Assembly (NCBI RefSeq): GCF_964355755.1
Contig: NC_092680.1
Span: 11,263,001 to 11,327,000, forward strand
Reading direction: 5' to 3'
Length of the DNA: 64,000 nt
Source of the DNA: Antedon mediterranea
Taxonomy: Eukaryota > Echinodermata > Crinoidea > Comatulida > Antedonidae
In this document: piece by piece, positions 12,325-46,988 of the stretch
How the letters are laid out: the number at the start of each line of letters is the position of its first letter
Position numbering within the stretch: position 1 is the first letter of the stretch
Position numbers and translations under genes: made by a program
The notes under the pieces: generated by a model
What the model was told of the DNA's origin: nothing
The model's input: the letters and a program-made list of their open reading frames with translations, nothing else
Databases searched by the model: none

Positions 12325-12328
12325 GTAA
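12325..12328. other. Left target-site duplication (GTAA)
   Basis: Intact monomers read GTTTTTGTGTAACCAAG. Here the satellite runs through GTGTAA and is then replaced by AACACGATTTTG. On the far side the satellite resumes with GTAACCAAG at 46985. The four bases GTAA are therefore present on both sides. A five-base TGTAA reading is also possible but makes the terminal inverted repeats less symmetrical. Confidence 0.75.
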
Positions 12329-12342
12329 AACACGATTTTGTG
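12329..12342 (+). repeat. Left terminal inverted repeat of the giant element
   Basis: AACACGATTTTGTG matches the inverted right tip AACACGTTTTATTT over the first six bases, then over TTTT after a one-base offset. It is short, as in transposons that rely on subterminal binding sites. Confidence 0.6.
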
Positions 12343-12904
12343 CCATAACGGATTTCTACAATCCGCATTATTTATAGAATTTTCCTAAAAAAAAGCTATC
12401 ATTAGAATTAAAAATATTATTTGAAAAAACAGATGTGGTTGTAAGATTTGTTTAATTATTGAGAAACATACAGTTTGATAATGTCAGCCATAATGTACAT
12501 TATGGTAAATATTTTAGACATAGAAAAAGATCAATAAAATAGATCGACAATATGCAAATCCTTGTTTATTCTATAAATTTATAATTCGCTATCCTTTTTA
12601 TAATTATAGAAAAAAACATACTAGCTTTTTTAGGTTAAAATATACTGTCCGTTTTCCAAAACAACAATAGACATTACACAATGAGTTTTGTTCGGATTAT
12701 GAGCTTCTTATTTAAACTAGGTTTAATGTGCAGAAACTACTTTATTTAATAAAAAAATAAATGGTATGGGCCAAAAAAATCTTTATAATGTCCATTTTTT
12801 TCGCGAAGTACACACAAAGCAAAGAAAACAAATTTTAATAACTGCAGAATATTTTTAATTTTTAATCATTCATTGTTTTAATACAACTTTACTATAAAGT
12901 TCAT
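12343..12904. other. Left subterminal AT-rich region without a gene
   Basis: Non-satellite, AT-rich DNA between the left tip and the palindrome array. I see no exon or ORF. It contains a perfect 18 bp palindrome, CCATAATGTACATTATGG, at 12488-12505, whose half-site (CATAA/TTATG) resembles that of the nearby array. Confidence 0.6.
12488..12505. promoter_or_regulatory. Perfect 18 bp palindrome in the left subterminal zone
   Basis: CCATAATGTACATTATGG is its own reverse complement. It lies about 160 bp from the transposon tip and could be a dimer binding site. Function is inferred from symmetry and position only. Confidence 0.4.
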
Positions 12905-13510
12905 CTACATGGTCATAAACATTATGACTACAGTATGGTTGAGCTATTGTTATAAAAACTACATGGTCATAAACTTGACTACAGTATATGGTTGAGCTAC
13001 TGTTATAAAAACTACACGGTCATAAACTTTATGACTACAGTATATGGTTGAGCTATTGTTATATAAACTACATGGTCATAAACATTATGACTACAGTATA
13101 TGGTTGAGCTATTGTTATATAAACTACATGGTCATAAACTTTATGACTACAGTATATGGTTGAGCTATTGTTATATAAACTACATGGTCATAAACTTTAT
13201 GACTACAGTATATGATTGAGCTATTGTTATACAAACTACATGGTCATAAACATTATGACTACAGTATATGGTTGAGCTATTGTTATATAAACTACATGGT
13301 CATAAACTTTATGACTACAGTATATGGTTGAGCTATTGTTATATAAACTACATGGTCATAAACTTTATGACTACAGTATATTGTTGAGCTACTGTTATAC
13401 AAACTAGATGGTCATAAACTTTATGACTACAGTATATGGTTGAGCTATTGTTATATAAACTACATGGTCATAAACTTGACTACAGTATATGGTTGAGCTA
13501 CGGTTATATA
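12905..13510. repeat. Left subterminal tandem array (56 bp unit) with palindrome GTCATAAACTTTATGAC
   Basis: About eleven tandem units of roughly 56 bp, each with the order palindrome, CTACAGTATATGGTTGAGC, TATTGTTATATAAAC. The palindrome is GTCATAAACTTTATGAC in six units and GTCATAAACATTATGAC in three; two units have lost its middle and read GTCATAAACTTGAC. The 17-mer has 8-base arms around one central base. The same motif, with a different centre, is arrayed near the opposite end of the element. Likely clustered recombinase binding sites, by analogy with subterminal repeats of known DNA transposons. Confidence 0.85.
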
Positions 13511-13622
13511 CAATTATGAAATTGGTTGAAAATTAAATAATTTTTTTAGATTCATTATACATGTAAAATTCCATTAATGTGCACCCTATTGTGACAACCA
13601 GTGAGTTGTAAAACTCCCTGCA

Positions 13623-13952
13623 TTAACTTTCATTTAAAAAGTCATCTCTTAATTCTTTTAATTTAACAATAACATTGGTAGGCAATCTACTAGTTGGTGT
13701 TAAATTAAATATACTTATCACCTCCTCCTTCGATATTATTTCTCGCCATTCTTGTCCATCTTTTTCACACAGAACAAACCGGGAAGTATACGTTCCAGTG
13801 TACCACACTACTTCTACCTCATTGTTATTTATGCTGAATATTTTGCCTATCTGAGGCCATTCTGTGGGATATCTCCTTAAAGCTGTTGCTACCATAGCAC
13901 CAACATCGAGTTGCTGTGGTGGCTTACGCTTCGAAAATTTACCAATGTGTAC
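13623..13952 (-). CDS. Exon 9 of the transposase candidate (C-terminal domain and stop)
   Basis: This exon has 110 codons including TAA, after acceptor ACTACTAG, in phase with exon 8. It encodes a basic stretch (KFSKRKPP) and then a compact domain with EWPQIGKIFSI, VEVVWYTGTYTSRF and EEVISIFNL. The Trp/Tyr spacing and alternating hydrophobics recall a small beta-barrel reader or chromo-like fold, which would suit DNA or chromatin contact. That fold is a guess from pattern, not a recognised match. Confidence 0.75.
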   Translation of the reverse strand, partial: VHIGKFSKRKPPQQLDVGAMVATALRRYPTEWPQIGKIFSINNNEVEVVWYTGTYTSRFVLCEKDGQEWREIISKEEVISIFNLTPTSRLPTNVIVKLKELRDDFLNES

Positions 13953-16900
13953 CTAGTAGTGTGGGAGAAAGCATAGAAAAGTCATAATCATTTTTCTTAC
14001 AACCCTAAAAATATAGAATTTTCGTTGATGCATTTGCTTGATGCGATTATGAGATCATATCCCAAATATAAGCACTGCTTTAAACTATGTTGCATTACAT
14101 GTTTCAAAGATGTAATTTTGAAAATCTATAATATCTTTATCATACCGGTCTTATTTCATTTTCATTATCCGAGTCACTAATGTCTGTCTCGTTTCCATCA
14201 GATTCCTCCCTCATAGGGCTTGCATTGTTGTCATTAAAAATGATGTCATGGAGCAAAAATCGCTGTTCATTTCCTTAAAAAAAAAGAGTACGTATTAGTT
14301 TTAAAAAGTAAATAATATACATTCATACAAAATATCATGATATATTTATGCTGAGGTGTTTGTTGCATAAAAGCTGGGCCAATACATTGCACACCATGCT
14401 GATTGATTGATTTTATCTTATGAATTAATCAGGAGGCATGTTTCTCCAGTGTACTCCACTAGATATCGTTCATGTTATTTGATAATTTTAGGTTCTCACA
14501 TAAAATGATCAGTGGAAGCATGCATTGGTGAATGTGACCCAACATAGTTGTGTGGAGTAAATAGTTGAATTTTGTTATAGCTGCTGAATCTATACTAAAA
14601 TCAAAATTCTCTTGTTAACCAAAAAATATATGTGTAAAATGGTGAAACATCACACATGCAATGTAGTACAGTACATACCTTCTGTGATCTCTTCTATATT
14701 ATTTAAAAATTCCTCCCACCAGTCACGTTCTTCTATTCGCAAAAAATTTGCAACAGACTTTTTAACTTTGGTATATCTGCATTACTAAAATCAGGAGTAC
14801 ACAACACTGGTATATCAGCAGGGCTTTCCTTGAGCAAATATGGAAGTGTGTCCATTTCTCTTGCACATTCACACCAAGTACAATCCGTTGACCAGTTCTT
14901 ATAGGACATGATGCATTTTCCGGTTTGAGCCAAAACAAACTTAAACTGGTGTGGTTTGCTGTGGTAACGTATGTCTTGCATGTATGGTACTAACCAGTTC
15001 TTAATGTCATGCAGATAGGAAATGATACTTGATGTAATCGGCAACTTTTTGTACGAGTTTTCAACAGCACTTCGAAGATGATCAAGTGTAGATGCTCTAT
15101 ATTTGTTCAGGTATTTGGCCACACATGAAAATAATTGGTCAATATCCTCGTGAGTGTGACCCACCATTAAAAACCCAATCTTTATCTGAAAGAGTAAAAG
15201 AAGTAATGATTTAAAATTAAAACTTTTCAAAGCAAAATAAAAAAAATACATTTTTAGTATATTTCCATTTTTTCCTCATCTAGTTAGACTAGAATGTTAT
15301 TGAATATTTTATGTCTTAATAGATAATTACCAATAGTAAATTAATTACTGTCCTATTAGGCTGGTGGAAATCACCCAACACAGGGGATATTTTGTGGTGA
15401 ACGAGAACAGGGTAAATGAATGATGAACTGGGTTCTTTAAAGTGCACTGTGTATAATGTTTTATTATTTATATATCATTTATAAATGTATAGTCATTTAC
15501 CTTTCGAAAAATCTTTAACTCTACAAGAAGAGCACATAGGGCAAAAACAAATCTGTTTTTATTATCCTTTCCGCTATTGTCCAACTGCAGATATAAGACT
15601 GGTGGTAGAGGTTGTATCTCTGACAGCACCGTCAGTATAATGTTGCAGGTTAGGTTTGAGTCATGTGGAAACTGCTTTAGGTCAATGAAGCAGTGCCCAT
15701 GTCGTCCATGTACCAGAACACCAGTTACATGTGTGGCTAGTTTCCACATCTTCGACGTTTCTTTTGATTCGCAAGCAAAAGATGGTAAATCAGTCTTGCT
15801 TTGGTCCATTCCATCGATAATTATTGACAAATACTTGTTGGGATTCTGTCTTGCTTTCTGCATATGTTTATAGTACTTTCGACGTTCAATACTGAAAAAT
15901 TAAAATCATATGTTTATAGTTTTATTTTGCATTTAATAATAAATTTTTGTTTTGTTTAGTTATATGTTATCTATTAGCCGATGACAAGATGAGACAATGC
16001 TTTACTTCTAATCTATTAAAATTATTGATTAAATAGAGGTTTTTTGTATAATAATGATTTTGTTTATCTTTTCTCTTTTTTTGTTTACAACCACTTTTAT
16101 TCATTCATTGTTCATACACAATAATTATTTTCATTTTCTACCATTTTTCCCCGTTATTTTCTGTTTTATTTCAATCACTCTTAATTTTATTAAGTTAGAA
16201 TTATTTTTAAAAACACTAATAATACTATAGAGGAGGTATACAGTGGAAGCAATAATTATTTTTCCTATCTATGGTAATACCGGGTATACAAGTTCAACAG
16301 AATTTCTTGTTGAAAGGTTTAAACTACTGGTTTTGTACACAAAATAGGTAGGCATACTTACTTTTGTTTTCGTAAATGCTTCTCTCTCTTCATCATTAGT
16401 ATTTGCCGTTTTTGCTTTTGATTTGTCTTGTGCAGCTCAAATTTAATTCTGGTGCATTTGCTGCATTTTGCAAAACGATTTTCCTATTAAAAAAAATTGA
16501 AAAAATACAGCACGTAAAAATATAAAATTAAACAAATTTTGCATTCAATATAGTGAATGTAGGGAAGGAGTTGTGAGGCCCATCATACATGCATCTGGAT
16601 TGTACAGTATGTTTTTCCAGTATTTTATTATGAATGAAAATTGAACCTACAGGACTTTCTGCATAACATTGAAGTGAATTTATAAAAATACGTTAAAAAA
16701 TACTTCAGTCAATGAAGATGACATGGATTTTGTCCATTGGTACAAACCATAATAAGTGTAAAAACGTAAACATACCTCAGGTATTACAATATGCTTGAAT
16801 TCAACACACCAAAACTTGTAGAATGTCGCTAATGCACACACATCTTCATTTCTTAGCTCAAACTCATCTTTCATATGCATGTACACATCATGTTTGGTAA

Positions 16901-19900
16901 GCGTTGATGGTAGATGATCACCGTATTCATTACAAAATTTAATAAACCAAGCCCGACACTGTTGAGTTGAATTGCTATATACCATCTTTCTGGTGAAGTT
17001 GGGTGGTAAAAGATAACAGCATCCTTCTAAAAAGAAATAAAATGTAAATTTCAAATATTAGGAATTTCAAATACTGTACTATTTTATTATTGTTTGGTTT
17101 AATCCATTGATTAATGACTTATGATCATTTTGCATTATCTTTCTAACATAGTGTTAAGCATATTAATTTTATTGTGTAAAAATAATTAAACAATAATCAA
17201 ATGCATTCTATTCATTTAAAAAAAAGTTATTCTCCACTCCTCGTCAGATCCTGCCTATGTCCCTGTATAATACGACTATAAGTATAATGGAATGTAATCT
17301 TCACACAGTCACAGTAATCTTTCCGTTTCAGCAACATTAAAACACATACATTAAAAGTAATATTAACAGCATGTAAAATTAAATAATGTAAAATGTACTG
17401 TAAAACTAAACAATTAATTACCAATAGCTTGCTTCCTTATTTTGTAAAAAGTTGACCGGCCAATACCATTTACTAACATCCATGCTTTTGCACAAACTTT
17501 GTTAGCACCAACTAGTAGACAGATTTTGGTGGCACCTCCGGATGTGCTGAGATGTTCATTGAAATATTTAAGAATCCAACAGCGTTGTTCATATTCGGTC
17601 ATTGCTTGAAAAGCTTCCCTTGTTTGTTTTATTTCTCTAAAATTTAGCATACCAATGCACATTAACGCACAACAGCAGGTCAAATACAAGTTGTGTATTG
17701 GCTGTAGGTGATTCCTTTTCCTTTTTTTTTACAGAAAGAATAAACAAAATAACAATTATATGGTACCAATTGCGGAAAATGTGATCAGTCAATACGGTTT
17801 CAGAAGTTTTGGAGGTTACGTAAAACTAGGTGACTAATTCGCATTAATATATAGATACTTTTAATTCTTTGACAAACAATTTTTTTTTCGGTTCAGATAA
17901 TTTCAATTTTCGAGTGTTCAATTACAGGTTGTGCAGGTGCCTTGTTCATTAGACAGTTGTACCTATTTACATACCATACAGACATAACATTAGAACCTGA
18001 CCATAGAATCAGACACAAATGGAAACAACCAGCAATGTCCATATCTTTTAGGTACAGCACAACCATCAACATCAAGCACTATTTAATAAAAGTAGTTTTA
18101 AAAATTAATGACATATCAAACTTACCACTACGCTTACTTGTGTGATTAGAGATTTTAATCTCATCATCACTTGATCCAGATGAATTAAGGTAATTAGTTT
18201 CTACAGTCTCTAGGCCTCCTGTATTTCTCTTGCAGGCTAAATAAAAATATAGTAGTTTAATATTTATAGCAGCCTATGCAACATACATGTACACAGTAAT
18301 TCTTCATTTGGGGTAACTGGTGATTGATAGCAGACATTTTCAAATTTTGGATAGTGGAAGATAATATTTTGATCCAGGAGCTATAGGCTTTATGGGAGGT
18401 TATTACCATTTATCCTTTTTTTTTCACCATTATTCTCATCGTTATTAATAATGAGGTTTTTGTTATTTCTGAAGAATGCACCTTTGTAATTATTAAGTAT
18501 GCTAATGATTTAAAGGTGTAGTAGGGAAGTAAATCTAAATAAATAAACTAGCCTCTATAGAGGATACTAATATCTACTAGCTAGTAGTAGTAGTAGTAGT
18601 ATTATTAGGCTGGCTGCTTAAAAGGTAATTCCCTATCCAAGCCTAGATGAAGTTTTGTATAAAGTTGGTAGGAGCCCTACTAAGAAAGGTTAGCAAAAGC
18701 TCATGGTTAATGTTATTGCTACTGACCTGCTGATATGTCATCATCGGAAGTATCGACATCGGAAGTATCGACATCTGTTGTAGAAACCTCCATGCTTTTC
18801 TCTCTGCTGCTGGAGGAACTTTGGTAGTTGTTACTAGACAAACAGAGTCTATGTTGTAATCAGAAAATGTGCAATTTAAACTATTATCATAGAAATAATT
18901 AGATACATTTATTGTTTAAAAGGGACTGCTAATTTCAATTTTTTATTTTATGATTCCAGATCAATTATTTATTTTACATATCAAAATAATTTCTTTTTTT
19001 TCCAGTCAAAAACCCCTGCCAAGGGGACATTATTTTGTTCCTGAAGCCTTAATAGGGGTTATACTGAACGTAACTAGAGGTGGTCCAGTGAAATAGAAAA
19101 CGTTAACAATGCAAACTTTTTTGTTAAGAACAATCTCAACGCACACAATTGTGTTATAAGTACGGAAAGGTAAATCAACACAAAAAAAACTATACTCAAC
19201 GATAAATGTCCCAATCGAATACGACATTGCTACCTCCCAGATCGGGCCCATAAAAACATAGGGATAGGCCTAGAGGCGGCCTCTACTCTAACCTAGTAAA
19301 TAACTACATAACATGTCATTGTATTGTTAAAGTTACTGACCTGCTGACTCTGTCGGTATGTCATCATCAGAAGTATCGACATCTGTTGTAGAAACCTCCC
19401 ATGCTTTTCTCTTTGCTGCTGGAGGAACTTCGGTAGTCGAAATCCCAGTAGGTGACCCTTCTGTATCATCAACAGCAGAACATCCATTATTGATTGATTG
19501 AATTGAACCGTTCCCACGTACAATTAGGCCTACTTCATCATCTTCACTTGAAGAATAGTAAAGCATACGCTCAGTTGGATAAGCAGTGCTGTGTGTTGTT
19601 GTTACTTGACAAACAGATTCTGTATCGTAATCAGAAAATTTGCAATTTGATTAAATTATTATCATACATAATTAATTAGATATTAAATCAAGAATGATTC
19701 CACCGAAATTTTGAGTTAAAATAACGATAGTGAAGCATATGAATAGGCAAACTGCCTAAAAATTGACATGTTTTGAGAAACTATTCTCATCTTCCACCAG
19801 AACAGAAAACAACGCCTAGGCTTAAGATTACTTATATACCAATAGGACAGGTTGTATGTAAATGAGGAAGTAATTAGCATGATAAAACAACAAGGAATGT

Positions 19901-22364
19901 AGGCAACAAACAATCATATGGCAAGCGTGACGCCTATTCATCAAATGCCTCACTATCGTTATTTTAAATAATTAATTATATGCCACACATGGTAAAATAT
20001 TATTGAAAATGTGTATGTTTGATCTCTTCTTTGGGACACCCTTTCCCACAAACAAGTGGATATAGGCCTATTAAGGGGGCCGGCACACATTTTGAGTGTA
20101 CCTGGCAAATGGTTGATTACCCCTATATTAAGTTTTTTCTATCCCAAACACAGTACAGTACTACATACTAAAATTTCCATAGGAATAGGCCTAGGCTAGA
20201 GCCTATCTCTAGCGGATTACGGTCGAAGCGGCCGCCAACCAAAGCGGCCGCTAGTTCAATAACGGTAATTTGTATGGAACGCCGTGTGCGCTTTGATTGT
20301 CGTTGTTTTGTAATTTTTGATTGTCATTGTTTCGATCCACAGGTTTTCTTTTCCTCGGACGTAAATAACAACCTACATTATTAATATTATGTAATATATT
20401 CTCTTTTTTTACAGATTGAATGTGATACGTTCTTTTAAACGAAATGGCGAATCGATGATTACTTACTTTAACTGTTCTAAATGATATATATGTTTAATAA
20501 AGTCAATAAAAAACATTCTGGTGTTTTTATTGTATAATAATATATAATAAGCCAATTATTAAGAATAATATATATATTTTTTCAATAAAGTATATCAAAA
20601 TATATATATTTGTTATTGTATATTAATATATTAGTAAAGTAACTACTGTAAGTAGTACGTGTTCGCAAACATAATTTAATGACAATAACATGATGACATC
20701 AATTTATTTATTTAATATCCTAAATTGTTTTATACCTTCAGATATATAAATATTGATCAATTTAAAATGAGTTTTAAATAATAAAATAAGATGCAAGTGT
20801 CTGTACGGTACGGTAATTAATTACGCGAATTGCGGCTAATAACTCGACTGGCGGCCGGCCGGCCAGGAATAGTGCTGTAGAAGGTCACGTTTTCGTCTTC
20901 ACGTTGCTTTATTGAAAACACAAACAATGTATTACAATGGAATAACAGTTAAATGTATAACACACCCTATTACTATTCAATAAAAACAAGTTCGATAGTA
21001 CAGTGTAAACGAGATATAAAAATTTGGCAATACCGTACGTAACTTATTATTGCAATACTGTATAAAGATTCGATGTAAATGAGATATAAAGATTCGGCAA
21101 TACCGTACGTAAATTATTAATGCAATACTGTATAAAGATTCGATTTAAATGAGATATAAATATTCGGCAATACCGTACGTAAATTATTATTGCAATACTG
21201 TATAAAGATTCGATGTAAATGAGATATAAAGATTCGGCAATACCGTACGTAAATTATTAATGCAATACTGTATAAAGACTCGATAGTATGTAAATGAGAT
21301 ATAAAGATTCGGCAATACCTTAGTACGTAAATTATTATTGCAATACTGTAAAAAGATTCTATGAGATAATTAAGGATTCAGCAATACCGTACGTAAATTA
21401 TTATTGCAATACTGTATAAGGATTCGATAGTATGTAAATGAGATATAAATATTCGGCAATACCGTGCGTAGATTATTAATGCAATACTGTATAAAGATTC
21501 GATAGGAGAGTGCTCAAGAAACGTCGGGTCAACGTAAATTATTAATGATTCGATAGTATATGTAAATATATTTAGTTAGTTAATATTAAAATACAAATAA
21601 AATATACATTGATTTATCGGCAGGCAAACTTAATTATTATAGAAATATAAAGATTCGATAGTACATGATTTGGCTTATATTTATTGGTTTGACCATACAT
21701 ACAATTACTGTAACTCAACTCGCCATAGGCCATGGCGTTGACAACGACAATCAAAGATTAAAGCGCACATGGCGTTCCATACAAATGACGATATTAAACT
21801 GGCGGCCGCTTTGGTTGGCGGCCGCTTCGACCATACTCCTCTCTAGCTAGGCTTAGTAATAAGTAATATTTACTAGGCCCAGGCCTAGGGCCTAGTACTA
21901 GTAGTAGTAAATAACTAGGCCTCTAGCTAGGCCTAGGCTAGGCCTACCTAGGTATGAACATTCATTGTTGTAGGCTAGGCTAGGCCTATATTGTATTGTT
22001 ACTCACCTGCTGCTGCTGACTCTGTCTGTATGTCATCATCAGAAGTATCGAAATCTGTTGAAGAAACCTCCCATGCTTTTCTCTTTGCTGCTGGAAGAAC
22101 TTCGGTAGTCGGAAGAACTTCGGTAGTCGAAATCCCAGTAGGCGACCCTTCTGTATCATCTACTCCTAGGACTAGGCCTATGCCTAGGCCTTCTTCATCG
22201 TCTTCACTTGAAGAATAGTATAGCATACGCTCAGCAGTTGGAACAGGGTGTTCTGTCGTGCCATCATCAGAAAATGTGATATTCATAATGTTATTATCGT
22301 AGAAATATGCATCGTCTTCGCTTGAGTATTGAAGCATTAGCTCAGAGTCGCTTATCATGTTCAT
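13623..22364 (-). CDS. DUF7869-like DDE-type transposase candidate, nine exons, about 803 aa
   Basis: Exons on the minus strand: 22007-22364, 18126-18236, 17422-17634, 16776-17026, 16362-16483, 15501-15891, 14679-15185, 14146-14273 and 13623-13952. All junctions are GT/AG and codon phase closes at each, except that exon 7 lacks one base; restoring it gives 804 codons including the stop. The N-terminus (1-156) is acidic and Ser/Asp-rich. Residues 157-311 include the segment KVCAKAWMLVNGIGRSTFYK. A CxxC lies at 318-321. The RNase H-like core has D378 (IIDGMDQ), D456 (LQLDNSGKDNKN) and E495 (VGHTHEDID), followed by a C-terminal segment with Trp-rich WYTGTY. I recognise the core from the uncharacterised DUF7869-type proteins of invertebrates; the DDE assignment is by motif spacing. 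As the only recombinase-like gene of the element, it is the candidate transposase. The frameshift means this copy may be inactive or the base call wrong. Confidence 0.78.
14146..14273 (-). CDS. Exon 8 of the transposase candidate (acidic linker)
   Basis: This exon of 128 nt lies between acceptor TTTTAAG and donor GTATGA. It reads RFLLHDIIFND, then an acidic run rich in Glu, Ser and Asp ending EIRP. It is too short to stand out as an ORF and is supported by phase closure with both neighbours. Confidence 0.7.
14679..15185 (-). CDS. Exon 7 of the transposase candidate (catalytic Glu; one-base deletion)
   Basis: It starts after acceptor CTCTTTCAG with IKIGFLMVGHTHEDIDQLF, the strongest family signature here; E495 of HTHEDID fits the third catalytic position. 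The frame runs to IPKLK and then meets a stop at 14733-14735. In the neighbouring frame the same DNA continues as SVANFLRIEERDWWEEF up to a good donor (GTATGT). The 507 nt length also breaks phase by one base. The shift falls in or next to a run of five A (TTAAAAAG), so a one-base loss there explains both facts. It may be a real mutation or a base-calling error. Confidence 0.75.
15501..15891 (-). CDS. Exon 6 of the transposase candidate (first two catalytic Asp)
   Basis: This exon of 391 nt lies between acceptor TTTTTCAG and donor GTAAAT. It carries IERRKYYKHMQKARQ, then IIIDGMDQSKTDLP (D378 and D381), HVTGVLVHGRHGHCFIDL, FPHDSNLT and LYLQLDNSGKDNKNRFVFA (D456). The order of beta-strand-like hydrophobic runs ending in Asp matches an RNase H fold. 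Conserved Lys, Asn and Arg after the second Asp are typical of this protein family as I know it. Confidence 0.82.
16362..17634 (-). CDS. Exons 3-5 of the transposase candidate (helical N-terminal region and CxxC)
   Basis: Exon 3 (17422-17634) encodes EAFQAMTEYEQRCWILKYF and KVCAKAWMLVNGIGRSTFYK. Its acceptor is taken as TTTTAGAG because only that keeps phase. Exon 4 (16776-17026) encodes CCYLLPPNFTRKMVYS, FCNEYGDHLPS and DVCALATFYKFWCVEFKHI. Exon 5 (16362-16483) begins ENRFAKCSKCTRIKFEL and ends in a basic helix, MMKREKHLRKQ. The order (DNA-binding-like helical region, Cys pair, basic helix, catalytic core) suits a transposase. Cys318 and Cys321 could bind zinc with earlier Cys or His residues. 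Confidence 0.75.
18126..18236 (-). CDS. Exon 2 of the transposase candidate
   Basis: This exon of 111 nt lies between acceptor TATTTAG and donor GTAAGT. It encodes a hydrophilic, partly acidic stretch (LETVETNYLNSSGSSDDEIK). The two bases at its 5' end join the single base left by exon 1, or by either exon-1-like copy, without breaking frame. Confidence 0.65.
18727..18890 (-). pseudogene. Partial copy of exon 1, frame-shifted
   Basis: Minus-strand similarity to exon 1: FSDYNIDSVCLVTTT, then PPAAERKAW, with the same donor context (CAGCAG|GTCAGT). One G is lost in the stretch where exon 1 reads KAWEVSSTD, which breaks the frame. The last part (GTCGATACTTC) is duplicated. It has no own ATG. Probably a decayed tandem duplicate of the first exon. 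Confidence 0.65.
19341..19640 (-). pseudogene. Second copy of exon 1 (open, no clear own start)
   Basis: The minus strand reads CKFSDYDTESVCQVTTTHS, then ERMLYYSSSEDDE, GSPTGISTTEVPPAAKRKAW and DVDTSDDDIPTES up to donor CAG|GTCAGT. It parallels exon 1 (22007-22364) almost throughout but lacks the exon 1 ATG region. A stop lies just upstream. The donor phase equals that of exon 1, so it could serve as an alternative first exon if transcription began upstream; otherwise it is a duplicate relic. Confidence 0.6.
19716..19967. mobile_element. MITE with about 30 bp inverted repeats, TTAA-flanked (piggyBac-like)
   Basis: The left end reads TTAAAATAACGATAGTGAAG, and the right end on the opposite strand reads TTAAAATAACGATAGTGAGG. 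The matches continue through GCAT..TGAATAGGC. Each tip abuts TTAA (19716-19719 and 19964-19967). The inside, about 190 bp, has no coding sequence. TTAA targets are characteristic of piggyBac-mobilised elements; the family link rests on that alone. It lies in the first intron of the transposase candidate. Confidence 0.65.
20221..21832. mobile_element. MITE-like element with GC-rich terminal inverted repeats
   Basis: The left tip GGTCGAAGCGGCCGCCAACC is mirrored at 21813-21832. The inverted match extends about 95 bp inward through TTTGTATGGAACGCC, GTGCGCTTT and GATTGTCGTTGT. Each repeat contains two GCGGCCGC-type sites, striking in this AT-rich DNA. The interior holds a 70 bp minisatellite and no coding sequence. 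A target duplication is not clear (flanks GATTAC and ATACTC), so the superfamily is unassigned. It sits inside the first intron of the transposase candidate. Confidence 0.75.
20990..21512. repeat. 70 bp minisatellite
   Basis: About seven tandem units with the order AAAGATTCGATGTAAATGAG, ATATAAAGATTCGGCAATAC, CGTACGTAAATTATTATTGC, AATACTGTAT. The central units (21071, 21141, 21211) are exactly 70 bp apart; outer ones carry small indels. It lies wholly inside the GC-tipped MITE. Confidence 0.85.
21870..21990. repeat. AGGCCTA/TAG low-complexity tract
   Basis: A run built from CTAGGC, AGGCCT and TAG units between the MITE and the donor of exon 1. Similar TAG repeats occur at about 18580-18600. 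No coding potential. Confidence 0.7.
22007..22364 (-). CDS. Exon 1 of the transposase candidate (start codon, acidic N-terminus)
   Basis: ATG at 22364; the frame is open to donor GCAG|GTGAGT. The product is acidic and low in complexity: LQYSSEDDAYFYDNN, LYYSSSEDDEEG, AAKRKAWEVSS, DTSDDDIQTES. Repeated SSEDD and TSDDD blocks could be CK2-type phosphorylation sites. This ATG is the first in the frame and is preceded by CCAAT- and CRE-like motifs. Alternative first exons exist downstream (19341-19640, 18727-18890). Confidence 0.7.
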
Positions 22365-22589
22365 GATTTAACAAATTGATAAAAGAAATGAACAATATAC
22401 GGTTTTATGTTCATTTAACCGTCATTCGCATCTAATCTTTGGAAAAAGCGCGAACGAATTTGATTGGCTGCTGCAGCTGATCAACGTTATATTATTTCAT
22501 GTGACGTCGTCAACGTCCAATGCAATTACAATACTGTACTTTATTCATTTTAAAACAAACCGAAATTGTCCACTTTTCCATTACTGAAA
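22365..22589 (-). promoter_or_regulatory. Putative promoter of the transposase candidate
   Basis: Upstream of the exon 1 ATG, the plus strand shows TTTGATTGGCTG (a CCAAT box on the minus strand) at about 22459 and GTGACGTCGTCAACG, a CRE-like TGACGTC, at about 22501. A second CCAAT, in the other orientation, follows. No TATA box is evident. The neighbouring Merlin insertion begins just beyond, so some upstream control DNA may have been displaced. Confidence 0.45.
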
Positions 22590-23301
22590 CTGATTTAGGA
22601 TCAACCTGAGTTTTCGGCATGTATTGAATATAGGACTATTCCATTATTATTTATAGGGGTGTTAGTCAATATGTTGGGTTGGGTGTGCCAGGCTTGTTGA
22701 GGCTTCTATTGTTCGTGTCATTGTGCCAATTGTTTTGTATTTCACTGTGTTTGATAAAAACAAACAAAAAACTGCTGCTATAGTTAGCCTATGTGTCTGT
22801 AAATTATATCGTATTTTACACTATATTTATATAGCCTATAGGCCCTAACATGTTTTTTACCGTCAACAGTTAAATCATATCATGTTATATTTTACATTTC
22901 ATGTAATATTATTATATGTTTTTTTTTCTCAACAGCCGAATCAAGTTATATAGCCTCTTACAAATAACAAGAAAAAATACATTCAAACGTTATTCACAAT
23001 AAGGAGAAAACATATACAACTTATTTAATTTATGTTTTAATTTATATCAATCCAAAGGAAAATTAATGAAACAACGACAATGATGTGGGTATCAGTGGCT
23101 GGATCTCAATAGAGATACAAAAAAAAGCGAAAAGCTAAATCAAAACGATAAAGTAAAACAGCCAGAAAAACAATTTATATAAATACATCCATGTTTGTTT
23201 TTTTCTCAACAGTTTATGACTTTAACAAATTCAGTACACTTAAAGGCATAAGATTAAGCAAAACATACATTGTGTAACATATTTAATTTAAGGTATATAT
23301 G

Positions 23302-24396: not shown

Positions 24397-24703
24397 CTCC
24401 CCTGTTTAAGCCGAGTTTGTCCTCAAACTTAATATTATTCACAACAAGAAGAATCTTTTCAGCATTTTCAGAGTCAATGCCAGCATCATCAGGCCAGTCA
24501 GGGTAAACGTCCCCAGTACCATCGTCTTCAACAAAGGACTCTACACATTCCCCTTCGGCTCCCACAAAGTGTCTCATCTTCTTCTCTGGGAGAACATATA
24601 CTGTGTTTCCATTACCATGGGCAGCACGCCTAGTTGCTTCTAGTTCGGCTCTTAGCTCATCAACCGTCCTCTGCACATCTCGCAACGATGCCTTGCTTGC
24701 CAT
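24380..24703 (-). CDS. Truncated gag-like ORF of the LTR retrotransposon
   Basis: ATG at 24703, about 107 codons, ending inside the 3' LTR. The N-terminus is a coiled-coil-like helix (SLRDVQRTVDELRAELEATR), followed by KKMRHFVGAEGECVESFVED, which resembles the motif opening many gypsy Gag capsid regions, and an acidic stretch with YPDWPDD. Everything after this point of a normal gag-pol is absent. A GTG codon directly precedes the ATG and was not taken as the start. Confidence 0.6.
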   Translation of the reverse strand: MASKASLRDVQRTVDELRAELEATRRAAHGNGNTVYVLPEKKMRHFVGAEGECVESFVEDDGTGDVYPDWPDDAGIDSENAEKILLVVNNIKFEDKLGLNRGVWGLI

Positions 24704-37300: not shown

Positions 37301-40300
37301 ACTACGCCTACATGATGATCATGGGTAGCTAATGGCATGAGGCTCCGACCCTGTATGCCACTTTTGGAAGTGTTTATATTGATGTTGCAAACAATTTCAT
37401 TATCAAAATTTATATGTAGAAGACAAAACTGATTAATTAGTGTGCATGATGCATATAAGAAGTAATTACTGAAAACTATCATTGTAGTACATTTTTTATA
37501 GTATTAGTAGTACTTTATAGTATAAAGGGTGTATAAAGTTGTGCCTTTTTCAAGCATGATTTGAGTGATAGTTGTTTTTGGGGTTGGCAATTATTGCGAC
37601 AAAATTGTAATGTCCTTGACGTTATTAATGCTTAATTTCCGTGACAGAGATAAACCCTTATATCAATAACATATCATTGGGGTTTTTTTTTATCTAATGT
37701 GATATAAAGGGATAATCGCAGAAACAGCACAGAACTCCGAATTCCTAAAAATGCTCTAAACATTAGTCCCAATCATAGTCGAGCTGACGTGGGTTTGGAC
37801 TTCCAAATATACACAACCTTAAATTACCACTAAATTTCAAAAACGTTGCGCCGGTTCTGAATATTATATCTAATCTGAATGATATAGGCCTAAATGAATA
37901 ATACTGATACTTGCAGAAACCGCAAAGAACGTTCAATGTATTGCATTCAAAAGACATGTCACATTCGTGTAATATCTTATATCAATGACACGAACATATT
38001 AGGTTGTCAAAAGACAAAAAAAACTTGGAATTACTACTTAAAGCCACAAAACTGTTTGATCTTAACATTAACATACTCCCAGATCAGTAAAATTATTCCA
38101 TCGACTACCTAAGTTTAAGGTTCAATATTAACCACCATTTGAGTTGCTTTTTTTTAGATGCAATCCTAATTGTTTATATCTACCAAGCTATCTTCATTGT
38201 TTTCAGCTTGTGCCTTGATCCTTTGTTTTTATTTCTTTATTCCAGTCCACTCAGGCAGTGCTTGTTTGCTTCATATTCTCAATTTTGTTCTTTCACTTAT
38301 AAAGGGCTAGTGGATTTATATTTAAATGTTTTTTTAATTTTCTGTTTTTTAACTCACATAATGTCTAAAAGATCGCAATAATAATGAAGCTTTTGAAATG
38401 GATGTAAAATATTCATATTCTCAATTTTGTAAAAGCACTTCCACTGATATAGTATATTATCCTATTAATTAAATATGACAAGTTGTACAGGTAGTTTCAG
38501 TTTTTATTTTCTATTGTTTTTGTATATTTTTTTTAAAAAGTAATTGTGTTGCTTAAATCATGGAGGTATAAACATATTTTGATATGCTTAAATGTTGTAT
38601 GTGTGCCACTGTTAAATATGTGTTGCTCCAAATAAATATTATTATATTATTATTACAAGGTACAGTATTCATTTCTGAAAATTATATACATAAAAGATGA
38701 TTTGATCATACAGGAAATTGTTTGAAGATAGAATTTAAAGTTTAGATTTAACTTGTTTTAAAGATTTAATGTGGCTATACTTTGATATATTATAAACGAA
38801 TTTAACAAAACTCTTTGAAATTTATAATTCTATTGAGCCTATATGCGTGGTACGGTCACTGTTACTCTTTATTCATTGATTTAAAATTCAGGTTAGACTT
38901 TTAATTAGAAAGAAATAAACACACCAGGGTTAAAAGGGTTAAATGATCCATAATTAAGCGATATATCTACACTGTGAGACACAAAATGCTTTCATAAAAT
39001 TACACATTTATACCTTTGCTTAATAATAATATTTTATAATAATTCATTTTAACGGCACTACGCCTACATGATGATCATGGGTAGCTAATGGCATGGGGCT
39101 CCGACCCTGTATGCCACTTTTGGAAGTGTTTATATTGATGTTGCAAACAATTTCATTATCAAAATTTATATGTAGAAGACAAAACTGATTAATTAGTGTG
39201 CATGATGCATATAAGAAGTAATTACTGAAAACTATCATTGTAGTACATTTTTTATAGTATTAGTAGTACTTTATAGTATAAAGGGTGTATAAAGTTGTGC
39301 CTTTTTCAAGCATGATTTGAGTGATAGTTGTTTTTGGGGTTGGCAATTATTGCGACAAAATTGTAATGTCCTTGACGTTATTAATGCCTAATTTCCGTGA
39401 CAGAGATAAACCCTTATATCAATAACATATCATTGGGGTTTTTTTTTTATCTAATGTGATATAAAGGGATAATCGCAGAAACAGCACAGAACTCCGAATT
39501 CCTAAAAATGCTCTAAACATTAGTCCCAATCATAGTCGAGCTGACGTGGGTTTGGACTTCCAAATATACACAACCTTAAATTACCACTAAATTTCAAAAA
39601 CGTTGCGCCGGTTCTGAATATTATATCTAATCTGAATGATATAGGCCTAAATGAATAATACTGATACTTGCAGAAACCGCAAAGAACGTTCAATGTATTG
39701 CATTCAAAAGACATGTCACATTCGTGTAATATCTTATATCAATGACACGAACATATTAGGTTGTCAAAAGACAAAAAAAACTTGGAATTACTACTTAAAG
39801 CCACAAAACTGTTTGATCTTAACATTAACATACTCCCAGATCAGTAAAATTATTCCATCGACTACCTAAGTTTAAGGTTCAATATTAACCACCATTTGAG
39901 TTGCTTTTTTTTAGATGCAATCCTAATTGTTTATATCTACCAAGCTATCTTCATTGTTTTCAGCTTGTGCCTTGATCCTTTGTTTTTATTTCTTTATTCC
40001 AGTCCACTCAGGCAGTGCTTGTTTGCTTCATATTCTCAATTTTGTTCTTTCACTTATAAAGGGCTAGTGGATTTATATTTAAATGTTTTTTTAATTTTCT
40101 GTTTTTTAACTCACATAATGTCTAAAAGATCGCAATAATAATGAAGCTTTTGAAATGGATGTAAAATATTCATATTCTCAATTTTGTAAAAGCACTTTCA
40201 CTGATATAGGGCTAGTGTTGCCCATATATTATCCTAATTAAATACGATTTAATGTGGCTTTACTTTTATATATTATAATAATATTTTATAATTATTCATT

Positions 40301-40310
40301 TTAACGGCAC
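34372..40310 (+). repeat. 1.76 kb macro-tandem repeat, about 3.3 copies
   Basis: Units start at ACTTGCAGAAA: 34372, 36154, 37909 and 39666 (lengths 1782, 1755 and 1757, then a partial). Copies 2-4 differ by only a few bases; copy 1 is more diverged at its 5' part and has about 27 extra bases. The last copy keeps its first 530 bp, then skips most of the interior and ends near TTAACGGCAC. Short ORFs recur in every copy, but only because the DNA is repeated; they show no codon pattern or domain. Likely recent unequal exchange of one dispersed repeat. Confidence 0.93.
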
Positions 40311-41768
40311 TTTGATAAAACAATGTTATATATCATACTATTGCACCTTTATTCATGGGGTGACCTACTATAACCTTACACTATTATGGAAGAAAAGAAA
40401 AAAAAAAACAAATAAGAATTGTGAAAGTTAACCCAATGTATCACGGGTGTGACTTGGGTACACAATTGAAAAATTCATTATATAATAATATCATGTGCAT
40501 GCAAAAACAAAATTGTATTATTAAATGTGCATATCATTTATTTGTCCAATATAATTTTATATATTAGTTTAATTTATTTTTCTAACGCCTAGTTTGACAG
40601 GCCAACTTTGAAATTGAAATAATCTTTTCGTTCGACACAATATTTCAGAGATACGTGAACATTTGATGATGGTCTATCCGATATGACTTTGTTTTTTTGT
40701 ACATAAAAAGTGGACAATTTTGGTTTAGATCAATGAATGCTTAAAATTGTTTTTATTTTGTGCTATATTTTTCAAGTTGATATCTGGAATACTATCAACG
40801 CTTTTATCTTATAATACACGATATATTCATATTTTTTTACAAGAAAATAAAGTATTGATCACTAGCTTGTTTTTATGTATTTAATAACTATTCTAAGTTC
40901 ATTTTAAATAGGCGTATGTTTATATTTTAATGATTCATGGTAAACAATTATAAACAGCTTCAATATTACACAGTAGGTTATTCAAAAGAGACGCACAATT
41001 TATACGGACGTGTTTTTAACGACAAAATTGACCAATCAAAATGGAAATAGTCAAAATACAATAATTTTATGTTCATTGGCTACCCCACCAACAACCTAAA
41101 CTTCAAATAATAAAACATCTCTGTAATACTGTATTTAAAAAAAAGCATATTTGCAACCGAAATTTCTTATTTTATAAATATAATATAAATTTACAATTAT
41201 ACAAAACAATATACAACTGCTTATAAAAAAGGAATTTAATTAAAGAATTTTAATTTAGTTAAAATATCAGGATTTCTTACTTCAATTTGATGTTTCCTTT
41301 AGAGGCACTAAACTTTTGAATATATGATTTATTTATTTTTTGTTATTATGTTATGTGCAAATAAAGTATTTACATAGTTGATATATATATATATATATAT
41401 TATGCAGTGTAGCATAGGTGAAATTACGGGAGCCCAATATGAATTAGTTTGAAATGGTAAAAATTATTTTACTACAGTATAAGTAGATTAAAATATATAA
41501 GTTAATCTATGAAAATGATTATATATTACTGGCAGATTTTATCGATCTCTATCGTGCAAATAATACTCGTTATCGATATGAAATACGATTTGCACTTGAG
41601 TTTTTCTTCCTGCTGATCTGTAGCTTTAGTATAAACAATGTGAACAATGCCCAAACAGGGAGTTGACTAATAACTCCCTGGCCCAAATAAAAGATCGTAA
41701 CAGTGTGAAAGTGCGTCACTCGTCGCCCAACATTGTTTGTGATCACTTCGTTATCGCATTTGATAAAA
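40311..41768. other. AT-rich region upstream of the plus-strand gene
   Basis: No coding exon recognised. It contains a short (TA)n tract at about 41381-41401. The last 130 bp before the ATG includes CAAATAAAAG near 41684, a weak TATA-like match, and may be the promoter of the plus-strand gene. Confidence 0.5.
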
Positions 41769-44700
41769 ATGGACTGGAGGTTTTGTGTAGAGGAAGACAA
41801 CATTGCTTATCTAATAATTAATAACACTAGGGCAATAAAGCATTCTGATGGTGAACAGTTAGGCAAGGTTATAAAATTTACCAAAACAACTAAAGGCAAA
41901 AACTGGCTTAAGGTAAGATTGTTGTGTTCTTCTAAATAATATAATTTTATTTTAATGTTTTTAGGGAACCATTCTTCACCAGTCTTATTACTTTATAAAG
42001 ATGTTTTATTTTCCATTTTGCAGTTTTAAAAAGTGTTTCAAGCCACGCAATTATTAGTTTTATTAGTATTTTCCCAGGGGCACAATCTTCAGCTGTTTAA
42101 TAGGCCTATTATATTTGGATTTTATAGGCTTTCTGATTATAATATATATTATGATTTATTCGATTATTTATTTCATCTAATTAATTGGAATGTTGTTTCA
42201 GGCCTAAAACTAAATTGTAATATATCTTTACTATAGGACCATTGATACTAATTTTGTTGACCATTTTTTTAACATTAAAGTTTTATATATGATTTAAAAA
42301 ATGCATTTTCATCAAGAGCACCAACACTGAATATTAGGGTGTAGTGTGTACACTTAACAACTATATAAATTTCTATGTTTAGTAGTACGCTTGCTGCAAC
42401 CAAAGTATTGTGGAGCAAATTCAAACCGGACGAAAATTGCCCATTTTGCAAATGCAAGACAATTGACGACCTTACCAAAACATTGCAAACATTACGAAAG
42501 CGAAAAGCTCAAGATGCTGAAAACGTAACTACAAAGAGAACAAGAATTAACATAAAGACAATTGACGAAACAATCAAAGAAAAGATCATTGGTTAGTATA
42601 TGAAACATTTGTTATTGAAGTTACATACTGTACCATGCCCCATGGACAAGCATAATTATTATCTGCTTTTGTTTTACTGTAGTTTACAATTAAACAAACG
42701 TTACTGTTTTATATTTTTTCAAATGTTTTGTTGAATATGTCACATAATAGCTATTCACTTTGATCTTGGATAACAAAAACTGTAATTTTAAACATAACTC
42801 ACAATAACTATAGGCCTAACCATGATTAGATTTAATGTATCTACAATTCGTTACGTTAAATTAGTATAATCTGGCTAGATAAGTAATTATACGTACTAGG
42901 CCTATTAAAATATAAAGCGGATGAACACATTTTTCGAAGATGAACGAACTAAAGATATTTTGAACACAGGTTTTAACTTCTTATAGTTACTCTATTTTCT
43001 ATTTGTTTTATTGTTATTTAAGTTTCAAACAGTTATTATAAAACGCATAAATAGATTCCGGTCATTCGATTGGACAATTTTCTTTCACATGACTACTACT
43101 AGCCTTGCAAACCCAGACCTAGCCCGGATGCTAACATACACTAGGCCTAACCTTCCTAGATATTGTGCAAAATACCTATATAAATTCAAAATTAACTAAA
43201 ATATAAAAAATAACATGTGCAGGGTGATCTCCATGCACTCAAGCAGGCAGGGGGTGATGATGTCCTGACACTACCTAGGCCTAGACTAAACGGCCTATAC
43301 TGTATGGCAACGTTAAATTTTTAGGATATATATTGTTAATAAAATAAAACTAATATTAAAATATAATTTCAATCATTTTTTGTAATTCATATAATTTAAT
43401 AATGTATCCTTTTTCTGAAAATGTCCAACTTTGTATGTAAAACAATTTTTAAAAATGTTTTTTACTGATGTCGCAACTTGCAATTACTGTGGAATTCCCC
43501 ATTTTAGTGAAAAATAAAATTGGTTTATTAAATATGAAAATCCTATCATAATAATAATACAATGACATATTTATATTAAGTTGTTTCATTATTCAATAAT
43601 ATTCAAACTGTTTTTAGAGATTATATATATTATTTTATAATTCTACCCATTCTAACTGACCCCCCGAAGCCTGACACATGCAATTTTTGCATAACACAGT
43701 AACATTGAGACTGCACTGGTTTTGTTACTGGTTTTGTTACTGTTGTTATTCTTATTATATTATTTTTTCTATGCTTTTTTTTTGTAGAAATGTGAAAAAG
43801 AAATGCTGATTTCTGATGTCATCGTAGTTGTTTGCAATGACGAGGACCTGCTATACAATATGACTATTTTAAAAGACAACGATAGAGTCATGCAAGTACA
43901 GTATTGGTACTGCGAAGAACAAGGTATACCCAGTTTGTTATTGTATTTACAAATATAGTTCAGTCATTTTTATTCAATTATAAATATAGGTCAATCATTG
44001 ATTGGCAGTCTACTAAAAAATTCACCAATTTGCAATACTAACTGCTTTTTGGTATGAGGTGGATGGTGGGGTAATGGGGTTATTTCTTCTTGTGTCTAAT
44101 AAAAGAAAAAAAAAAGAAATGTACCATTGATATTATTATTATTATATTCAAATATACAGGAAAGTTAATGTAAGTATGTAGGCCTACAGTTTAATGATGA
44201 TTCATATTTTTTTTAGACACCATTCGCACGTTATTAGTAAGCCCTCAACACGAACGCATGATGAATGGAATTGGTGGCGTCATTAAGGCTAAGTCACTAG
44301 AACTGCTAATTAAGCAACTAGTGACAAGGCATAGCAGAGAAGGTCACTTAGTTGTAAATTGCCTAGGATGGAATGGTAAATAATACATTTATACCATAAC
44401 TCATAATAATCATTCATTGATGTTAACCAAAAACATATCGCGTGACAATTGGGCATGTCGCTAAAATCCAATCAAATGGGAAAAATTCTTGTTCTTTGAG
44501 TCATTACTATTGTCGTTTGTACAAACGACATTAATGAACTAACAAACTAATTTAATATTCAATTGAAATCTATTTTATTGTTATTATAATTACAGTGTTC
44601 AAGGAAATAATTTTGCAACGGCGCAATTGTATAACCTTGCTCGAGAATGATGGAGAATCTGAATTAAGATCCAGATTAGTTCGTTTCAAAGAAGAAATTG

Positions 44701-45261
44701 AAAACAGCATTCAGCTTGAAAATGGAGCCCAATCAGATGGTAAGTTTAAGTTAAATTAACTTTATTGTTTATCTATTGTCATGGATGCTAATACGAAGAA
44801 CAATATACAAGCGATATTGTATACATTCAAGTCGCAATACAATGCTGATGATTTGATGTTTGTAGTGCAATATACTGCTACTTTTTGTTCAGGAATTTTA
44901 AAACGGCATATTAAGCTGTATTCTCATAACTTGGACGGCATACTATGCTATCTGTATTGTAAACTTGTATAAACACAGCCCATGCATTTAATTTTTAATC
45001 AATATTCAAAATACCCATAATCAATTTCTGACCCAATTTGAAACATATAGTAATACAAATTTAAAAAAAAACAAGATTCTCTATTTTAAAATTTTGTTTA
45101 CACAGAGCTTCTAAAAAAATGATACAACTATTTAGAGGTCTATTAAATAATAGGGCCTTGGTTTATTCATCATTTCAGATGAGGACGACAGTACAGATGA
45201 GGAGGTTGAAAATAATGCGGAGATGGCAAATGAGGAGGACGACTACACATTTCCGGGGTGA
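41769..45261 (+). CDS. Unknown accessory protein of the giant element, about seven exons, about 292 aa
   Basis: Exons: 41769-41912, possible micro-exon 41965-41981, 42383-42591, 43801-43923, 44217-44375, 44596-44739 and 45179-45261 (TGA). GT/AG sites are good except the weak micro-exon donor and an unusual acceptor before 43801, chosen for phase. The protein starts MDWRFCVEEDNIAYL. It has CPFCKC at 73-78, basic runs RKRK and KRTR (92-108) like a nuclear signal, then a mixed region with VIVVVCNDEDLLYN and YWYCEEQ. A compact stretch follows (SPQHERMMNGIGGVIKAKS, HLVVNCLGWNVF). It ends in an acidic tail (DEDDSTDEEVENN). I recognise no family. Transcribed divergently from the transposase candidate and ending near the right palindrome array, it looks like a second gene of the transposon; a DNA- or protein-binding helper is a guess. 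Confidence 0.68.
41965..41981 (+). CDS. Candidate 17 nt micro-exon of the plus-strand gene
   Basis: It follows a strong acceptor (AATGTTTTTAG) and is followed by a weak donor, GTCTTA. Its 17 nt turn the phase-0 end of exon 1 into the phase needed by the exon at 42383, where a direct join would hit TAG. This is the only arrangement I found that keeps the frame. Confidence 0.35.
44217..44375 (+). CDS. Central exon of the plus-strand gene
   Basis: This exon of 159 nt lies between acceptor TATTTTTTTTAG and donor GTAAAT, in phase with both neighbours. It encodes the longest ordered-looking part of the protein: TIRTLLVSPQHERMMNG, then IKAKSLELLIKQLVTRHSRE and GHLVVNCLGWN. Helix-strand alternation suggests a folded domain. 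No family recognised. Confidence 0.7.
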
Positions 45262-45328
45262 AAATAGCATTCATGATACTGGACACATGCCTTGCAGTCA
45301 CATTTTATATAACTTTTCAAATTAATTT

Positions 45329-45360
45329 ATTAAATTTATTCTGTGCCTTGTGATGTTTAT
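45329..45360 (+). terminator. Putative polyadenylation signal of the plus-strand gene
   Basis: ATTAAA at 45329-45334 lies 68 bp after the TGA and is followed by the GT-rich TGTGCCTTGTGATGTTTA, the expected downstream element. Confidence 0.5.
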
Positions 45361-45410
45361 ATATATACTGTATATACAATTGAGAGACTAGTACTGTTCC
45401 GCCGTACTAC

Positions 45411-45475
45411 GACAGTGGTCTAATGGTCATCTGCATATCAAGCAGAATGTTCCGGGTTCGGATCTTGGATTGGGC
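45411..45475 (+). ncRNA. tRNA-like sequence (possible SINE head)
   Basis: TGGTCTAATGG resembles a pol III A box, and GGTTCGGATCT, about 35 bases on, a B box. TCTGC/GCAGA form an anticodon-like stem with a 7 nt loop, and CCGGG/CTTGG a T-arm with wobble pairs. The acceptor stem pairs poorly, so this is not a working tRNA. No poly(A) or simple-repeat tail identifies a complete SINE. Confidence 0.35.
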
Positions 45476-45479
45476 ATTC

Positions 45480-45839
45480 TCACTGATTTCCTCATCTTTA
45501 TCGTTTAAAATTAAATAATTAAATTTCACTGGGCGGTTTAGAATTATTCTGTGCCTGTGAAATGTATATATCTTTTAAATATTTTCTACTACAATCACGT
45601 ATAAATAGTTAGTAATGCATACAATACTTATTTTACTAGAAGCCGAGTTTAATTCTTTCTAAATTAATAACCAGTGTTAGTGAATAAATAGTTAAAATTT
45701 ATCAGTTCTTTAATTCTTTGATGTAAGGCTGAGAAAAAACATGAGTGTATTCATGTTTTGTCATTAATAAAAAGCTTGTATAGCACACTAAAACTTTGTC
45801 TACTAATTATTTTTACAGAGAAATTCTTGTATTTCTGAA
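45480..45839. other. Spacer between the plus-strand gene and the right palindrome array
   Basis: AT-rich, no gene seen. TTCTGTGCCTGTGAAATGTATA near 45547 echoes the sequence after the polyadenylation signal near 45338, suggesting a short local duplication. Confidence 0.45.
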
Positions 45840-46216
45840 GTCATAAATTTTATGACCTAATGGCAGCTTCACAATCATGTCATAAATATTATGACTTATG
45901 TAAAAATAGTCAATACCTTGAAGCCCGGAAATCACAGCCTCATGTACTATAACCAGCGTATTCCGAGACATAACATGTAGTTTTAAATTGTCATAAATTT
46001 TATGACCTAATGACTGCTAAATTAATGTCATAAATATTATGACTTATGTGAAAATAGTCAATACTGTACCAGGAAGCCCCGAAATTAGTGCTTCCTGTAC
46101 TATACACTATAACTAGCGTATTCCGAGACTTAACATGTACCTTTAAATTGTCATAAATGTTATGACCTAATGACTGCTAAATTAATGTCATAAATATTAT
46201 GACTTATGTGAAAATA
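45840..46216. repeat. Right subterminal array with palindrome GTCATAAATTTTATGAC
   Basis: Three tandem units of about 150-160 bp. Each holds two palindromes: GTCATAAATTTTATGAC (45840, near 45989; near 46148 with a G) followed about 40 bp later by GTCATAAATATTATGAC. The units also share CCTAATG, AATAGTCAATAC and TAGCGTATTCCGAGAC. The 17-mer equals the left array's motif with a different central base, although the linkers are unrelated. Confidence 0.85.
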
Positions 46217-46970
46217 GTCAATAGGCAGCTACCATGTCGATCGAATAATACACGCTGTTATCTGCTGTATATAGCCCATAACTTTATAACTTTTTTGTTG
46301 AATCTAATATATTATTACCGAGTATAAGGTGGTTAGGAGCTAATAATACTAAGCTTTAGAGCTGAGTGGAAATGGGCCGCTACTACTAGTAATTACACCA
46401 AAGTGTTTTGTGTATGATAATCGAAGTGCAGCTAGCTCTGCCAACAAATGCATGGATTAATACATTCATTTATAAAAATAGTTTTTAACACTCAGCTAGC
46501 TTTTATCTCATTATCATAAATGAAAACAAAAAAGAATTGCCTTTTTCAACTACAAATAAAAACATATCATCCAAACTAATACACAGAAAAAAGAAACAAT
46601 TATTCAATCAATATTATAGTTTATCGTTAAAGTAAGTTGATATATTTATGTTTCATTATACATTGTATTAAACTAGTTAATGTCGATGTATACATTTATA
46701 TAAAACAAGGTTTTGTTTATTAATTTCTCAGCGTTACTAAAATCAAAATATAAAACAAAACAAATTATACGGCAAGTTTATGCAAATAAAAATAATTATA
46801 AGAGGAAATGTTTGTTATCGCTAAATTGTAGTATTTTGATAATATTGAAATCGATAAAAATCAAAATATGCATATTTTACGATTTTGTATACATTTTAGC
46901 TATGAATGGCCAAAATTAAAGTAAAGGTCGATTTTGTTGAATCTACACAGACGTATAATGTTTGTACTGA
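46217..46970. other. Right subterminal AT-rich region
   Basis: No gene seen; an AT-rich ORF near 46713-46919 has biased composition and no motif. It mirrors in size the gene-free left subterminal zone. Confidence 0.5.
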
Positions 46971-46984
46971 AAATAAAACGTGTT
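46971..46984 (-). repeat. Right terminal inverted repeat of the giant element
   Basis: The plus strand reads AAATAAAACGTGTT directly before the satellite resumes. Its reverse complement begins AACACG, as does the left tip. Confidence 0.6.
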
Positions 46985-46988
46985 GTAA
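46985..46988. other. Right target-site duplication (GTAA)
   Basis: First bases of the resumed satellite, GTAACCAAGTTTC, repeating the GTAA at 12325-12328. Confidence 0.75.

Follow-up and report, generated by a model that had tools for sequence, protein, structure and literature searches.

Giant DNA transposons in algae and animals

Twenty DDD/E superfamilies are listed in PMC9587614, and giant elements have been described in both algae and animals. In Ectocarpus, a Sola1 element spans 21.5 kb and KDZ (Zisupton-like) elements reach 30.3 kb; accessory genes are reported for KDZ elements in fungi (PMC12477816). Fish Teratorn, at 41-182 kb, combines a cut-and-paste, piggyBac-like transposase with a herpesvirus (PMC6431247). 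Polintons (Mavericks) are animal elements with an integrase, typically of 15-25 kb and up to 40 kb (PMC6431247). Kolobok and KolobokP have DDD/E transposases; Kolobok targets TTAA, and KolobokP, found in echinoderms, makes 3-5 bp duplications and carries long terminal direct repeats (PMC9587614).

Here we describe an element of 34.7 kb from the crinoid Antedon mediterranea that compares with each of these in part. Like Sola1-1_Ec32 of Ectocarpus, it exceeds 20 kb, has a predicted DDD/E-type transposase and carries an accessory gene on the opposite strand from it, but Sola1-1_Ec32 comes from a brown alga and its accessory protein is described as ParB-like with a DNA methyltransferase (PMC12477816), whereas we obtained no methyltransferase match. 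It shares with Teratorn the standing of a giant animal element with a predicted cut-and-paste transposase, but we found no piggyBac-like transposase fused to a herpesvirus, no 18-bp terminal inverted repeats (TIRs) and no viral genes of the kind reported there (PMC6431247). A sequence-only reading of the locus had called it very large for a non-Polinton animal DNA transposon; it is large, but Teratorn and the algal giants are comparable.

A transposon within one satellite monomer

The element lies in a 64-kb stretch of contig C11 (11,263,001-11,327,000; hereafter the window) in a genome of 354 Mb and 18 contigs, and is flanked on both sides by an 88/427-bp satellite. The satellite on the left stops at GTGTAA and that on the right restarts at GTAACCAAG; between them, the element begins with AACACG and ends with CGTGTT, perfect inverted tips of 6 bp, bordered by a duplicated GTAA (Table 1). 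A T precedes the right GTAA, as it does in the satellite, and thus the target-site duplication (TSD) in the window admits a 5-bp reading (TGTAA) as well. In the outer 580 and 780 bp of the two ends, palindromes aside, there were no longer imperfect TIRs and no common motifs above the level of shuffled sequences.

We joined the flanks, retaining a single GTAA, and compared them with three satellite paralogues in the window; the 600-bp alignments are gap-free, at 99.3-99.7% identity. Since these paralogues also share private satellite variants of the interrupted repeat, we conclude that all three are empty sites; two of them, at 52970-53050 and 53750-53830, had been proposed from the sequence, and the third lies near 60410. 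In a longer comparison of 2,000 bp, the top paralogue was 96.2% identical (70 mismatches, 7 gap openings). Thus, the higher-order phase of the satellite is unbroken across the gap, as the sequence-only reading had held. Its description of both junctions and of the inverted tips was likewise correct, and its central claim, a 34.7-kb transposon caught within one satellite monomer, is supported by the tips, the TSD, the empty sites and the copies at other loci.

Table 1. Coordinates of the element, its parts, its empty sites and the other copies with both junctions readable. Positions are those of the window unless a contig is named.
Feature	Position	Strand	Remark
Left TSD, GTAA	12325..12328		empty sites at 53007, 53787, 60410
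Whole element, 34,656 bp, AACACG...CGTGTT	12329..46984	+	tips, copies elsewhere
Right TSD, GTAA	46985..46988		junction comparison
Left array, 56-bp unit, 9 copies of 17-bp palindrome GTCATAAANNTTATGAC	12905..13510		
Gene 1, last exon, C-terminal domain	13623..13952	-	100% to P0001
Gene 1 exon, acidic linker	14146..14273	-	
Gene 1 exon with GHTHEDID	14679..15185	-	candidate catalytic E codon 15149-15147; frame broken near 3' end
Gene 1 exon with IIDGMDQ, LQLDN	15501..15891	-	candidate catalytic D codons 15815-15813, 15581-15579
Gene 1 exon, CxxC motif	16362..16483	-	
Gene 1 exon	16776..17026	-	in-frame deletion of 8 residues vs P0001
Gene 1 exon, N-terminal region	17422..17728	-	matched to P0012
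Gene 1 upstream acidic exons	18082..22367	-	18121-18237, 18787-18849, 19342-19566; paralogous exon 22014-22226
Nested Merlin-like element, TIR GGATCAACC	22598..27492		perfect 8-bp TSD CTGATTTA; transposase remnant 26667-26894
LTR retroelement, 2,555 bp, two identical 1,095-bp LTRs	23302..25856	-	TSD TATG; missing in C2 copy
Reverse transcriptase fragment	31325..31684	+	RVT_1, 29.5 bits against a cut-off of 29.6
Tandem repeat, unit 1,755 bp, ~3.3 units	34410..40290		unit number varies among copies
Gene 2 remnants	42396..45261	+	42396-42593, 43788-43955, 44312-44374, 44595-44738, 45178-45261; middle exons absent
Right array, 6 copies of palindrome GTCATAAANNTTATGAC	45840..46203		
Empty site 1	52713..53312		99.3% to joined flanks
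Empty site 2	53493..54092		99.5% to joined flanks
Empty site 3, best match	60116..60715		99.7% to joined flanks
Copy, 26,311 bp	C11:12304920-12331230		TSD TTGA
Copy, 33,209 bp	C11:10838021-10871229		TSD AATAC
Copy, 29,381 bp	C1:24476292-24505672		TSD AATA
Copy, 8,434 bp	C4:14118957-14127390		TSD CAAA
Copy, 32,979 bp	C8:1440096-1473074		TSD ATTA

The same tips recur in different flanks

We searched the genome with both ends of the element. A 574-bp left-end query matched at 30 places, and 12 of these matches, the window among them, were nearly full length; a 763-bp right-end query matched at 17, again with 12 nearly full length. AACACG starts all 13 left ends that were read, and CGTGTT is exact at 9 of 11 readable right ends. 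Among the first 10 left ends there were nine distinct flanks, with one flank common to two ends on C9; in the stretches read, the match of these two C9 copies to the window ends after window position 33677. Sizes of the other copies range from 8.4 to 39.2 kb, with the same tips and differing flanks, and their identity to the window copy is 97.3-99.9% in the segments compared.

Duplications, with lengths counted from the AACACG/CGTGTT tips, were found in each of the six copies in which both junctions could be read, the window copy included; five are 4 bp and one is 5 bp. When we re-paired the flanks in all 265 ways that leave no true pair, there was never more than one match of six. These six were counted apart from a C4 copy of ~39.2 kb (in a simple-repeat setting, with a shortened right tip), a C2 copy (the final bases of its right tip are N), the left ends on C9 (two), C5, C4 at 22.18 Mb and C3 at 29.59 Mb, and the right ends on C3 (four). 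The sequence-only reading had predicted that a search with both ends would find AACACG-ended copies in new flanks with 4-bp duplications; tips, flanks and five of six duplications bear this out, and the 5-bp duplication departs from it.

Two further arrangements were seen among the end matches. At C4:12777520-12814757, three left-end fragments lie on one strand at ~18.37-kb spacing, perhaps from a tandem amplification that included a piece of the element. At C3:13838606-13883406, two right ends lie in opposite orientation 44 kb apart, and their first 50 flanking bases are identical, which suggests an inverted duplication.

Size of the moved unit

The copy on C2, of ~34.8 kb, lies in different flanking DNA and has a single mismatch to the window copy in 9,017 bases (seven segments, read outside positions 30759544-30764999, 5.5 kb). 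Thus, a block of such size has moved, in agreement with the earlier proposal that the whole block travelled as one unit, with one correction. The C2 copy holds an uninterrupted GGTATATATGTTTTAT, the empty site of the LTR retroelement, where the window copy has that retroelement. The LTR element therefore arrived later, in the window lineage, and the older unit was ~32.1 kb. The C2 copy also has ~82 bases fewer near 29140-29221 and extra tandem units relative to the window copy.

The LTR retroelement sits inside the Merlin-like element, whose transposase remnant matched DDE_Tnp_IS1595 below the cut-off (E 0.009). The Merlin-like guest recurs in other copies, one C11 copy retaining just 0.6 kb of it. 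The 1,755-bp tandem repeat and the right half of the element are also present in copies at other loci. The guest and the repeat have travelled along with the element, as reported for the Ectocarpus giants, in whose families nested insertions are described as generally fixed among copies (PMC12477816).

Genes and palindrome arrays between the tips

The top protein match of a gene 1 query is from Antedon mediterranea, with 98% identity over 81% of the query and several exons at 100%. DUF7869, a family that databases list without any assigned function, is the sole significant Pfam match of the gene 1 protein, with no KDZ domain assigned, and its predicted fold resembles those of DDE transposases and retroviral integrases in a re-examination of the top 50 candidates returned by Foldseek itself. 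We located a candidate catalytic triad by topology rather than residue alignment: D145 is conserved in 67/67 proteins, D223 in 64/66 and E262 in 64/64, and D148 and D265 are as conserved as these three. We took matches of the gene 1 profile in PDB to Nipped-B (E 4.6e-11, profile positions 604-702) and to xylanases (E ~0.7) as composition or chance. By protein search, DUF7869 proteins occur in sea urchins, brittle stars, mussels, oysters, corals, sponges, amphioxus and acorn worms; a pattern search of IMG/VR for relatives gave 34 stretches that fit the pattern, none of which was confirmed. The term 'DUF7869' was absent from the literature searched, and for the DUF7869 motif there was no relevant paper among the first 20 of 36 matches. 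The acidic exons near 18.8, 19.4 and 22.1 kb are related to one another, which suggests that the N-terminal exon of gene 1 has been duplicated more than once.

In the window copy, gene 1 and gene 2 are both damaged. In the C8 copy, every tested exon of both genes is open (those of gene 1 tested from P0012 residue 154 onward), and 2,467 extra bases lie between the positions equal to 43593 and 43638; this copy carries the middle exons of gene 2 between both tips, and one exon is partly repeated. Like the window copy, the C2 copy and one C11 copy lack the 2,467-bp stretch; both run straight through.

The 17-bp palindrome GTCATAAANNTTATGAC occurs at 15 places in the window, nine in 12912-13427 and six in 45840-46203, and nowhere else in the 64 kb even with two mismatches allowed; counted on two strands, this is 30 matches compared to 0.38 expected. 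The palindromes are also present in other copies: we counted 5 to 10 at the left ends of six of them, and 6 at each right end of the C1, C2 and both C11 copies. They are likely to be binding sites that aid pairing of the ends.

A giant transposon family and the alternatives

We conclude, with a probability of roughly 0.88, that the block is a copy of a giant Antedon DNA transposon family and that it was probably mobilised not long ago, in a cut-and-paste reaction, by the family's own DUF7869 protein, a predicted DDE-type transposase. The observations behind this reading are the shared tips in different flanks, the 4-5 bp duplications, the near-identical copy, the palindrome arrays and the presence of two genes between the tips. 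In the mechanism that we propose, the DUF7869 protein would cut at the AACACG tips by means of its D-D-E triad and would join them to the target with a 4-bp stagger, sometimes 5; either this protein or that of gene 2 would bind the 17-bp palindromes, bringing the distant ends together. The window copy, with its damaged genes, would have relied on proteins supplied in trans by other copies, unless the damage came after its arrival. As a complete element, with tips, duplication, empty site and copies, it links Pfam DUF7869 to DNA transposition, and it documents natural movement of units of ~26-35 kb in an animal, one of them apparently very recent.

We considered that a small transposon might have swelled in place by nested insertions, such that no 30-kb unit ever moved, as the Merlin-like and LTR elements, the reverse transcriptase fragment and the 1.755-kb repeat do occupy much of the middle. 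We regard this as very improbable: copies at different loci share the right half, the repeat and the Merlin-like insert, whole or as a remnant, and the C2 copy is ~34.8 kb and almost identical even without the LTR element, which contradicts growth in place for all but that element. Slightly less credible still is that the block came to lie in the satellite by segmental duplication or through an assembly error. Satellites are hard to assemble, and the common flank of the C9 left-end pair indicates that some copies arose by duplication, but the exact duplication at the breakpoint, the empty paralogues, and the same tips in different flanks with duplications in all six resolved copies rule this out except for those two C9 ends. 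Least probable of all, with next to no weight in our view, is a Polinton, virus or virus-fused element. The size would fit the range given for Polintons (PMC6431247), but polymerase B, capsid and packaging ATPase were not found by Pfam in 140 open frames of 50 aa or more (the frames from 45 aa upwards number 193), a scan that split or shorter exons could escape; its matches were DUF7869, the reverse transcriptase fragment, and weak ones to TMEM101 and DDE_Tnp_IS1595 (E 0.007-0.009).

A transposon of a giant Antedon family might still belong to a named superfamily. The duplication made by Zisupton is 8 bp. Those seen here are 4-5 bp, and Pfam assigns DUF7869 and not a KDZ domain; in being giant and having an accessory gene, the element resembles Zisupton/KDZ. 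The TTAA target of Kolobok and piggyBac occurs in none of the six duplications, and we saw no long terminal direct repeats like those of KolobokP. TTAA-specific Kolobok, piggyBac, 8-bp Zisupton and Polinton do not fit the element. Sola is the most likely named superfamily, with DUF7869 as Pfam's name for its transposase, and we consider this a serious candidate at somewhat less than even odds. Its large two-gene layout fits; Sola1 and Sola2 are reported in bivalves (PMC10294476), where DUF7869 proteins are numerous too; and Sola2-type elements give AT-rich 4-bp TSDs (PMC3627910), the length found in five of six copies. However, the TIRs of those Sola2 elements are 12-13 bp long, compared to tips of 6 bp here, and their AWWT duplications appear in none of our six; these features describe three slime-mould families rather than a general rule (PMC3627910), and our comparison with Sola is of element features.

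A possible ParB-like partner encoded by gene 2

Relatives of gene 2 were found by protein search only in Antedon and in the crinoid Anneissia japonica, and searches of Pfam, PHROGs and NCBIfam gave no family for the shared part of the protein. The structure model was unusable (pLDDT 46.5), and among matches to PDB sequences there was no ParB or Srx, the best profile match being OT3 (E 0.008). By eye, the conserved stretch LGGNHLRxAL...LRVASRHN resembles ParB/Srx. We treat a ParB-like nature of this protein as a lead only, of interest since the 21.5-kb Ectocarpus Sola1 element has an accessory gene, on the strand opposite the transposase, that is described as ParB-like (PMC12477816). A bolder extension, which we think unlikely although worth stating, is that DUF7869 defines an undescribed, animal-wide DDE superfamily that in crinoids drives giant two-gene transposons, and that the second protein acts as a ParB-like clamp on the palindrome arrays, bridging tips more than 30 kb apart. 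If true, such a clamp would account for the transposition of so long a unit.

We also note that one Anneissia japonica relative of gene 2 (P0123) has an integrase H2C2 finger at its start, outside the shared part, perhaps from a mis-joined retroelement exon.
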